Assembly (NCBI RefSeq): GCF_038023995.1
Contig: NZ_CP150660.1
Location: forward strand, 494,501 to 558,500
Reading direction: 5' to 3'
From: Polaribacter atrinae
Lineage (GTDB): Bacteria > Bacteroidota > Bacteroidia > Flavobacteriales > Flavobacteriaceae
Length of the DNA: 64,000 nt
The notes under the pieces were generated by a model. It had not been told where the DNA came from, ran no database searches, and worked only from the letters and a program-made list of their open reading frames with translations. A program made the position numbers and the translations under genes. This document shows positions 29,329-30,854 of this stretch, piece after piece; position 1 is the first letter of the stretch, and every line of letters begins with the position of its first letter.

Positions 29329-29368
29329 GTTTTGGAATTATGAGATCAATGATTTAGTAGTTGTAGGT

Positions 29369-29422
29369 GTGTAATTGTGTAATTGTGTAATTGTGTAATT
29401 GTGTTATTGTGTTATTGTGTAA
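29369..29422. repeat. 8-bp tandem repeat, about 6.75 units
   Basis: Four units of GTGTAATT (29369-29400) are followed by two of GTGTTATT and a partial GTGTAA. It lies directly next to the first REP hairpin and is a candidate phase-variable or slippage-prone tract, though no gene starts immediately after it. Confidence 0.9.
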
Positions 29423-29501
29423 GCACGAGCGAGACGCTCGCGCTAGCTTGAGTTAACTGAATGTTTGTTATTTGTCAGCGTGAGCGTCTCGCTCGTGACA
29501 G
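29423..29501. repeat. REP hairpin pair (REP1 and REP2)
   Basis: REP1 at 29423-29450 (GCACGAGCGAGACGCTCGCG, then CTAGCTTG) forms a CGAGCG/CGCTCG hairpin. REP2 at 29476-29501 is an inverted copy (GAGCGTCTCGCTCGTGA). They belong to the same family as the REPs around the RAYT gene. Confidence 0.88.
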
Positions 29502-29567
29502 CTGATTACTGTATTCGTTCTTGTAGATTAAAACTATTTGTAGAATCTATTTATTAATTACTATTGG

Positions 29568-29877
29568 TATTCTCAAAGTCAATTGTATTCATTTTAAACT
29601 AAAAATAAACATCATCATCATGCGCTAACGCGAGCGTCCCGCTCGTGAAACATCTAAAAAGTACAAACCAAAACACCAATGAGTAGAAAATATAAATTGA
29701 GATAAAAATTTTGAGTTTATCTTATTAATTAACGCCTATTTGCTTAATAATAAGTGTTTTATATTATTTAAGTATATTGAAGCTTCAAATTACGATAACA
29801 ACGATTCAATCATCTTATAGATGTTTTTAACTAAATTGTTGTGTATAAGCACGAGCGGGACGCTCGCGCTAGCTTGA
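29568..29877. mobile_element. Internally deleted REP-RAYT element, unit 1 (310 bp)
   Basis: The unit is bounded by inverted REP hairpins at 29623-29648 and 29849-29876. Between them it keeps the RAYT leader and first codons (ATGAGTAGAAAATATAAATT at 29679-29698, then a stop) and the homologue of the last RAYT codons (AACGATTCAATCATCTTATA, about 29800-29819). The gene body is missing. It is a non-autonomous derivative of the element at 30188-30854. Confidence 0.82.
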
Positions 29878-30187
29878 TATTCTAAAAGTCAATTATATTT
29901 ATTTTAAACTAAAAATAAACATTATCATTATATGCTAACGCGAGCGTCCCGCTCGTGAAACATTAAAAAAGCACAAACCAAAATACCAATGTATAGAAAA
30001 ATACAAATTGGGATAAAAATTTTGAGTTTATCTTATTAGTTAACGTCTATTTGATTAATAATAAATGTTTTATATTATTTAAGTATATTTAGACTACAAA
30101 TTACGATAACAACGATTCAATCATTTTATAGATATATTTAAACTAAATTGTTGTGTATGCACGAGCGAGACGCTCGCGCTAGCTTGA
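29878..30187. mobile_element. Internally deleted REP-RAYT element, unit 2 (310 bp)
   Basis: A direct tandem copy of unit 1 with the same 310-bp length and scattered substitutions. REP hairpins lie at 29933-29958 and 30159-30186. The start-region remnant is ATGTATAGAAAAATACAAATT-like at 29989-30009, and the same 3' remnant follows. The next copy in the series is the full RAYT element. Confidence 0.82.
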
Positions 30188-30208
30188 TAAAAAATCAACA
30201 TCGTTATA

Positions 30209-30235
30209 CGCTAACGCAAGCGTCCCGCTCTTGAA
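30209..30235. repeat. REP hairpin upstream of RAYT (REP7)
   Basis: CTAACGCAAGCGTCCCGCTC form with two substitutions against the consensus (CGCAAG for CGCGAG, TTG for GTG). It lies 30 nt before the RAYT start codon, at the same place as REP3 and REP5 in the deleted units. Confidence 0.8.
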
Positions 30236-30264
30236 ACATCTAAAAAGTACAAACCAAAACACCA

Positions 30265-30813
30265 ATGAGTAGAAAATATAAATTTAGAGAAAAATCAGGA
30301 GCTTATTTTATCAGTTTTGCTACGATTAATTGGATAGATGTCTTTACAAGAGATGCTTATTTTTGGTGTATTATAGATTCTTTAGATTATTGTAGAAAGC
30401 ATAAAGGAATGGAAATTTATGGATATTGTATCATGCCAAGTCATATCCATTTAATTTTTCGCTCTGCATTAAATAATCCTTCCGGATTAATTAGAGATTT
30501 TAAAGGTTTTACTTCTAAAAAAATGTTGAAAGCAATTGAAGAGAATCCGCAAGAAAGTAGAAAAAAATGGATGCTTTGGATGTTTGAACGTGCAGGAAAA
30601 AAGAATAGTAATGTTACCAATAAACAATTTTGGCAGCAACACAATCATCCTATTCAAATTTGGTCATTAAAAGTATTTGAACAAAAACTAAAATATGTTC
30701 ATAATAATCCTGTAGAAACCGGATTTGTAACTGATCCTATAGATTGGAAATATAGCAGCGCTAGAAATTATGGCAATGACGATTCTACTATTATAGAAAT
30801 AGATTTGAATTAG
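30265..30813 (+). CDS. REP-associated tyrosine transposase (RAYT, TnpA_REP)
   Basis: A 182-residue Y1-transposase of the IS200/IS605-related HUH superfamily. The HUH motif is H-I-H in YCIMPSHIHLIF (about 54-65). The C-terminal YVHNNPVETGFV contains the conserved Tyr of the family. RAYTs cut and join single-stranded REP hairpins and are usually domesticated single-copy genes. The gene is full length and intact, and is flanked by inverted REP sequences (30209-30235 and 30833-30854). Two tandem deleted copies of the same element lie directly upstream. Confidence 0.93.
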   Translation: MSRKYKFREKSGAYFISFATINWIDVFTRDAYFWCIIDSLDYCRKHKGMEIYGYCIMPSHIHLIFRSALNNPSGLIRDFKGFTSKKMLKAIEENPQESRKKWMLWMFERAGKKNSNVTNKQFWQQHNHPIQIWSLKVFEQKLKYVHNNPVETGFVTDPIDWKYSSARNYGNDDSTIIEIDLN

Positions 30814-30832
30814 ATTATTGTGTTGGCAAGAG

Positions 30833-30854
30833 GCACGAGCGGGATGCTCTCTCG
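30833..30854. repeat. REP hairpin downstream of RAYT (REP8, decayed)
   Basis: GCACGAGCGGGATGCTCTCT is a weakened copy of GCACGAGCGGGACGCTCGCG. It marks the 3' boundary of the full RAYT element. Confidence 0.7.

Follow-up and report, generated by a model that had tools for sequence, protein, structure and literature searches.

The locus lies in a window of 64,000 nucleotides (the whole stretch of DNA analysed) from the genome of Polaribacter atrinae, which is 4.01 Mb in size and forms one contig; the host is numbered G000 among the genomes compared, and all features are given in window positions on the + strand. A patatin-like gene is located upstream and a DPRP/photolyase-related gene downstream. 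From left to right, the region 29424–30849 holds an R-type REP, an inverted REP, two 310-bp units and an intact RAYT gene with REPs of its own. The R-type REP hairpin R0 (29424–29447), which precedes the array, belongs to the direct repeat family D4 and to the inverted repeats I3 and I8 and matches the REP core; taken with positions 29412–29423, it has the same sequence as the units show at their right end. It is faced by an inverted REP at 29477–29497 (I8, 95% complementary). Immediately 5' of R0, positions 29368–29422 are occupied by about seven copies of the 8-mer TGTGTAAT. These copies look like the sequence that separates the RAYT stop codon from the RAYT R REP and are perhaps a microsatellite grown out of an older RAYT tail.

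Architecture of the array and of the intact RAYT

The initial annotation had described two consecutive head-to-tail 310-bp units in front of the intact RAYT, with REP hairpins at the positions where the full element has them. Both statements were confirmed, the first by Tandem Repeats Finder (period 310, 2.0 copies, 89% matches, 29564–30189) and by the same spacing in a repeat search, the second by the inverted repeats. Unit 1 (29568–29877; TRF period 310, repeats D1 and D2) consists of linker, L REP, RAYT leader, RAYT head, RAYT tail and R REP. Its L REP at 29624–29647 is 96% complementary to its R REP at 29850–29873 (I2 for both, D4 for the latter). Between the two are a remnant of the first ~27 codons of the RAYT at 29679–29760 (approximate end; shuffle tests and alignment) and one of the last ~26 codons at 29761–29840 (approximate start; shuffle tests against the RAYT tails of G009 and G076). 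Unit 2 (29878–30187; TRF and pairwise alignment) has its L REP at 29934–29957 (I4, I6), a remnant of RAYT head and tail at 29989–30150 (alignment, shuffle tests) and its R REP at 30160–30183 (I5, I6, I9). Each 310-bp repeat takes in linker outside its REPs, as seen in the repeat search. Read from the sequence, the frame is broken by a stop at codon 9 in unit 1 and at codon 17 in unit 2; both units are non-coding.

The intact RAYT (30265–30813) encodes a Y1/HUH transposase of 182 amino acids. It scores 93.5 bits with the curated RAYT model NCBIfam NF047646 (cut-off 80) and 26.6 bits with the IS200 model NF033573, well short of the cut-off of 55, and it contains a match to Pfam Y1_Tnp (PF01797). 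A PDB sequence search with the protein returned weak matches, the best to IS200-type transposases (E 0.0015), with TnpA-REP 4er8 at E 0.068. The motifs SHIH and YVHNNP, read by eye in the ORF, come close to, without exactly matching, the NH[LIV]H and YIH[QN]NP given in text passages of PMC6006769 for RAYT subclass 2.6 (mostly Bacteroidetes); they are also near subclass 2.4 (YIxNNP). The gene has a dN/dS of 0.034–0.088 against six relatives and of 0.03–0.09 over 21 pairs, and the full RAYT is under strong purifying selection. Its L REP (30210–30233; I7, 88% complementary) is unlike the unit L REPs at two positions, and its R REP (30834–30849; I15/I16) is degenerate. A second RAYT of the genome (G000:C1:2272204–2272740, L047; 61% identity) carries a different REP type on both flanks, as judged by eye.

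The REP core GAGCGNNNCGCTCG has 15 forward matches in the 4.01-Mb genome and the reversed pattern has none. Of 16 places listed for the core, six fall between window positions 29426 and 30176; others are arranged as inverted pairs elsewhere in the genome, separated by short spacers and, by eye, lacking an obvious RAYT end. The resident RAYT is a REP-flanked gene with REPs recurring in the genome; the core is matched by the unit REPs and by neither of its own REPs. In the alignments the REPs seem better conserved than the unit interiors. At 43 kb from the locus (G000:C1:567271–567499, L041) we noticed an R REP, a linker like the RAYT-adjacent one and an L REP. This sequence also resembles a RAYT tail and reads as an R-to-L array fragment at another site (both by eye).

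Gene-end homology of the units

Leader, ~27 first and ~26 last codons are kept in the units, and some 395 nt of gene body (codons ~28–158) are absent. The homology of the gene ends was assessed by comparing unit scores with those of dinucleotide shuffles (1000 or 2000). No shuffle out of 1000 reached the score of either unit interior against the first 100 nt of the resident RAYT. This signal resides mostly in the first ~20 nt, the remainder being reached by 68/1000 shuffles for unit 1 and 8/1000 for unit 2. With the G009 RAYT head, 0/2000 shuffles reached unit 1 or unit 2. At the other end, the score against the resident RAYT tail was reached by 99/2000 shuffles for unit 1 and by 5/2000 for unit 2 (186/1000 and 4/1000, respectively, for longer stretches), and that against the G090 RAYT tail by 244/2000 and 75/2000. 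With the RAYT tails of G009 and G076, none of 2000 shuffles reached either unit. Among four mid-gene control pieces compared with the unit tails, one scored high (unit 1, 6/2000). Virtually shortened RAYTs and the units align along their entire length.

These comparisons support the units as internally deleted, REP-bounded RAYT derivatives in tandem. The claim of the initial annotation that the gene ends are kept and the body is missing is right, but the case rests on the RAYTs of the relatives; the resident 3' end matches poorly, and the tail match to unit 1 in particular is weak. The unit tails are closer to the G009 and G076 RAYT tails than to the resident one, which points to an older or different allele as the parent; the resident 3' end is not the direct parent of the units. 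At the 5' side, unit 1 and the resident RAYT show no leader difference over 31 sites and the leader of unit 2 has four differences, while leaders differ between species. The 5' ends look homogenised inside the genome or newly copied. The opposite order of events, with the units as the original form and the RAYT inserted later, had been named as an alternative in the annotation and fails: the units hold pieces of both gene ends, and G009 and G076 show the join plainly.

Units and other RAYT derivatives in related genomes

Of the 166 genomes of the genus, 43 gave a match to the RAYT protein. All 166 were searched for units by BLAST and with the sequence profile R1, which was built from the five units described below and finds them by construction. 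Candidates scored per genome numbered 4 among the BLAST matches shown, 17 for the profile and 150 in a deeper look at seven genomes, a depth at which weak matches can be missed. Strong full-span matches were confined to the five source units in 3/166 genomes: two in G000, two in G009 and one in G076. All five adjoin a RAYT at a locus behind the same patatin gene, upstream of the RAYT in G000 and downstream of it in G009 and G076. In G009, CDS nt 80 abuts nt 476; in G076, nt 81 abuts nt 478. Among the top candidates that a permissive first scan of the 166 genomes passed on for scoring, none carried this deletion at a site other than the RAYT locus, and the deeper search of seven genomes added weak matches only, the best new full-span one (15.9 bits, E 0.05) being in G000. 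The remaining profile matches are RAYT ends or weak, apart from those in G075 described below.

Among the fetched loci, the patatin gene stands beside the RAYT in G000, G009, G076, G090, G050 and G077, and the last three show no unit. A different deletion is present in G075, where three gutted RAYT copies stand in tandem with a period of 291 and span profile R1 at 29–31 bits. They keep a head of ~45 codons and the last few codons (tail by eye) and differ from each other at 8–18 of 291 sites; no full RAYT match was found in this genome. Each of these copies (G075:C125:1443–2178, L194) keeps a 46-codon open frame from the RAYT start. Copy number was checked against RAYT presence, as the annotation had proposed, and does not simply follow it: three of the six patatin-locus genomes have a unit, and the G075 derivatives occur without a full RAYT match.

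Several further arrangements were seen in the genus. In G090, shorter L-to-R units are repeated in a long tandem series; their spacer is leader-like, and a gene end is not clearly recognisable (by eye). In G077 (G077:C1:3243000–3248000, L193) a long tandem array of REP doublets with a period of ~145 bp lies away from the RAYT. G011 holds three RAYT copies at an exact spacing of 7312 bp and a fourth further on (L204, L212), and G081 has four RAYT copies with equal scores within a larger repeat (L208–L211), the shared stretch of one copy starting at the L REP. We considered self-mobility of the RAYT for the G081 copies and rejected it, since the shared stretch far exceeds the gene, running for at least 2 kb past the start codon in three copies and for 1559 bp when the fourth is compared, and segmental copying is simpler.

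To describe how widespread RAYT pieces are near RAYT genes, we counted them at 99 distinct RAYT loci (109 minus five without a match of >150 residues and minus five with identical CDS). This count included G009 and G076, left out the P. atrinae window, used flanks of 1.5 kb or 3 kb (shorter at contig ends) and omitted matches weaker than E 1e-6. Another full or partial RAYT stretch was nearby at 15 of the 99 loci (E <= 1e-6); the control with reversed CDS gave 0/99. Full extra copies were present at four loci (Flavobacterium aquidurense, Euzebyella, Pseudozobellia and an uncultured Flavobacteriaceae bacterium). The other eleven are partial: six tails, two heads, two head-plus-tail pieces (G009, G076) and one middle plus tail. 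RAYT-flank homology on both sides was detected at E 0.01 for 22/22 pieces against 11/180 random positions of the same loci, and at 1e-5 for 18/22 against 0/180. The annotation had regarded tandem copies with retained gene ends as unusual. Given these numbers, this is partly right: extra RAYT copies or pieces occur at 15 of 99 loci, but head-plus-tail units account for only two of the 15.

Derivatives away from a full RAYT occur in G159 (three copies), in G157 (two tail copies, by eye between REPs) and in G075. In a sample of the family, a RAYT match was found in 96/299 genomes, with a few partial copies read by eye (G198, G221, G175). Several tail pieces start within a narrow part of the gene, at CDS nt 470 (G028), 476 (G009, G157:C33, G159c), 478 (G076, Aquimarina pacifica) and 483 (G159a and G159b, which are alike); seven others start at nt 292, 384, 395, 433, 502, 511 and 514. 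A preferred 3' breakpoint near CDS nt 470–483 is suggested by this clustering, which was noticed post hoc.

Divergence and common origin of the units

Units of the same genome differ at 2/153 sites in G009 and 15/156 in G000. Between species, the difference of the unit interiors ranges from 0.25 (G009–G076) to 0.39 (G000–G076), with JC distances of 0.31–0.54. RAYT dS is 0.298 for G009–G076, 0.469 for G000–G009 and 0.533 for G000–G076. Unit JC distances are near these values, with 0.31–0.32 against 0.298 for the first pair and 0.46–0.53 against 0.469 for the second, and unit divergence is about that of neutral drift since the species splits. The copies within a genome are much closer to each other than those of different species, which indicates either a recent, lineage-specific doubling or homogenisation by gene conversion. 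The distance from units to RAYTs (JC) is 0.41–0.51 in G000, 0.18–0.25 in G009 and 0.19–0.27 in G076. The G000 units, being about twice as far from the RAYTs, would therefore be older or faster evolving, and one rate does not fit all.

Shared derived bases were counted against expectation: 1 against 0.7 for G009/G076, 3 against 1.6 for G000 unit 2/G009 and 5 against 1.7 for G000 unit 2/G076. Backbone support in the tree is 11–36. As there is no clear excess of shared derived bases, these counts do not establish descent of the units of all three species from one ancestral deletion. For G009 and G076, a single deletion event is likely behind the units, judging from the same join, the same position and a linker between RAYT and unit (L188, L189) that is alike at 88/97 sites. 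Between these two genomes, this linker is more alike than the unit interiors.

Discussion

The anatomy of the locus, the gene-end homology seen through the relatives, the loss of the reading frame, the presence of like units in two related species and the strong constraint on the RAYT are what the data show. We consider it probable that the array arose by an internal deletion within a REP-bounded array, followed by host-driven tandem duplication and drift, beside a RAYT that stayed under constraint. At the start, a domesticated RAYT passed on vertically would have stood within a tandem array bounded by REPs. In this array, one copy would have lost ~395 nt of the gene body while REPs, leader and first and last codons stayed in place. 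The shortened unit would then have been duplicated in tandem by the host machinery; the likeliest route is slippage during replication, or an unequal exchange, between near-identical REP and linker repeats. Both units would since have decayed free of coding constraint. RAYT nicking at REPs may contribute, and the pattern can be explained without it. We infer both the order, deletion before duplication, and host-driven slippage as the engine. The presence of linker outside the REPs but inside the repeat fits slippage or unequal exchange better than REP-bounded transposition.

That same linker weighs against the MITE-like reading put forward in the initial annotation. If the units were non-autonomous elements moved in trans by the RAYT through their terminal REPs, with the tandem resulting from preferential insertion beside the donor, REP-bounded transposition would not have copied sequence outside the REPs. 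The anatomical part of that reading (internally deleted, tandem, REP-bounded) stands: the units have terminal inverted REPs that are 92–96% complementary and an internally deleted gene without coding capacity. The exact core match of the unit REPs, in contrast to those of the RAYT, also speaks for movement in trans, as do the dispersed partial RAYT copies in other genomes such as G157:C33 and G159. What did not hold up is the mobility, since no dispersed copy of the unit was found in 166 genomes and in seven searched with more candidates scored, within the limits of the search; moreover, the similar tandem copies of G075 sit in a genome without a full RAYT match. We regard this explanation as unlikely. 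Slightly less likely again is recurrent deletion at a fragile spot, according to which the units of G000 and those of G009/G076 would be independent and RAYT/REP processing or hairpin-stalled forks would break the gene near CDS nt 470–483. The several tail pieces starting there and the units' lack of a clear excess of shared derived bases would fit. However, the clustering was seen after the fact, alignment starts are fuzzy in diverged copies, the tail match of G159c overlaps its head match, and the common head and tail breakpoints, position and linker of G009 and G076 argue for one event in these two.

That the units are kept for a function, for example as a structured RNA or as a decoy binding array for the RAYT, is in our view very improbable. 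The seemingly better conservation of the REPs and the recurrence of derivatives beside RAYTs could be taken in its favour, but the interiors diverge at about the synonymous rate, and three of six genomes with the RAYT at the patatin locus show no unit. An assignment to a known RNA family was dismissed, the Rfam match being at chance level (E 0.19).

The locus shares features with several known systems. RAYT/TnpA-REP loci (REPtrons) likewise comprise a REP-flanked, vertically inherited Y1 transposase gene under purifying selection, but here the intact gene is accompanied by two gutted copies in a tandem array. Passages of PMC3116915 and PMC8049555 describe the RAYT as a single-copy gene, and RAYT pseudogenes with deletions have been recorded for Pseudomonas and Stenotrophomonas (PMC3686654, in part). 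As in BIMEs and tandem REPIN clusters, REPs alternate in orientation and tandem units with flanking sequence are amplified locally (passages of PMC3116915 and PMC8049555); unlike there, the L-to-R interval is a ~200-bp shortened RAYT gene and not a short spacer. The units also differ from REPINs, which are REP doublets with a short spacer and a dispersed population, in that ~200 bp separate their REPs and the genome searches turned up no dispersed copy. With MITEs derived from internally deleted IS elements they share terminal inverted repeats, kept gene ends and absent coding capacity, but not dispersal or movement, for which we found no evidence in the case of the 310-bp unit. In the literature searched, partly top-ranked results and text passages and with most subscription papers outside its scope, we found no report of tandem internally deleted RAYT units.

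Local amplification of REPINs, probably by the host replication machinery, is a published view according to passages of PMC8049555, and tandem REPIN clusters including their flanks have been described (PMC3116915, in part). The present locus adds that a gutted RAYT gene, too, can form the amplified stretch. One origin of REPINs that Bertels and Rainey considered possible is from the REPs on either side of an IS200-like ancestor (PMC3116915). The intermediate required on this route is a RAYT copy that has been gutted but still bears a REP at each end, and copies reduced to a tail between REPs, as in G157:C33 (tail aligned, REPs by eye), are one step further along it. It is conceivable, though we hold this only tentatively, that RAYT loci of Flavobacteriaceae act as nurseries in which repeated gutting of the gene at a preferred 3' breakpoint yields non-coding units between REPs that amplify locally and occasionally disperse, as intermediates between a RAYT gene and a REPIN. 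The partial copies beside RAYTs in relatives suggest how small non-coding palindromic repeats may arise from a transposase gene, and in a genus with graded remnants this route from a gene to a palindromic repeat can be tested by comparing genomes.
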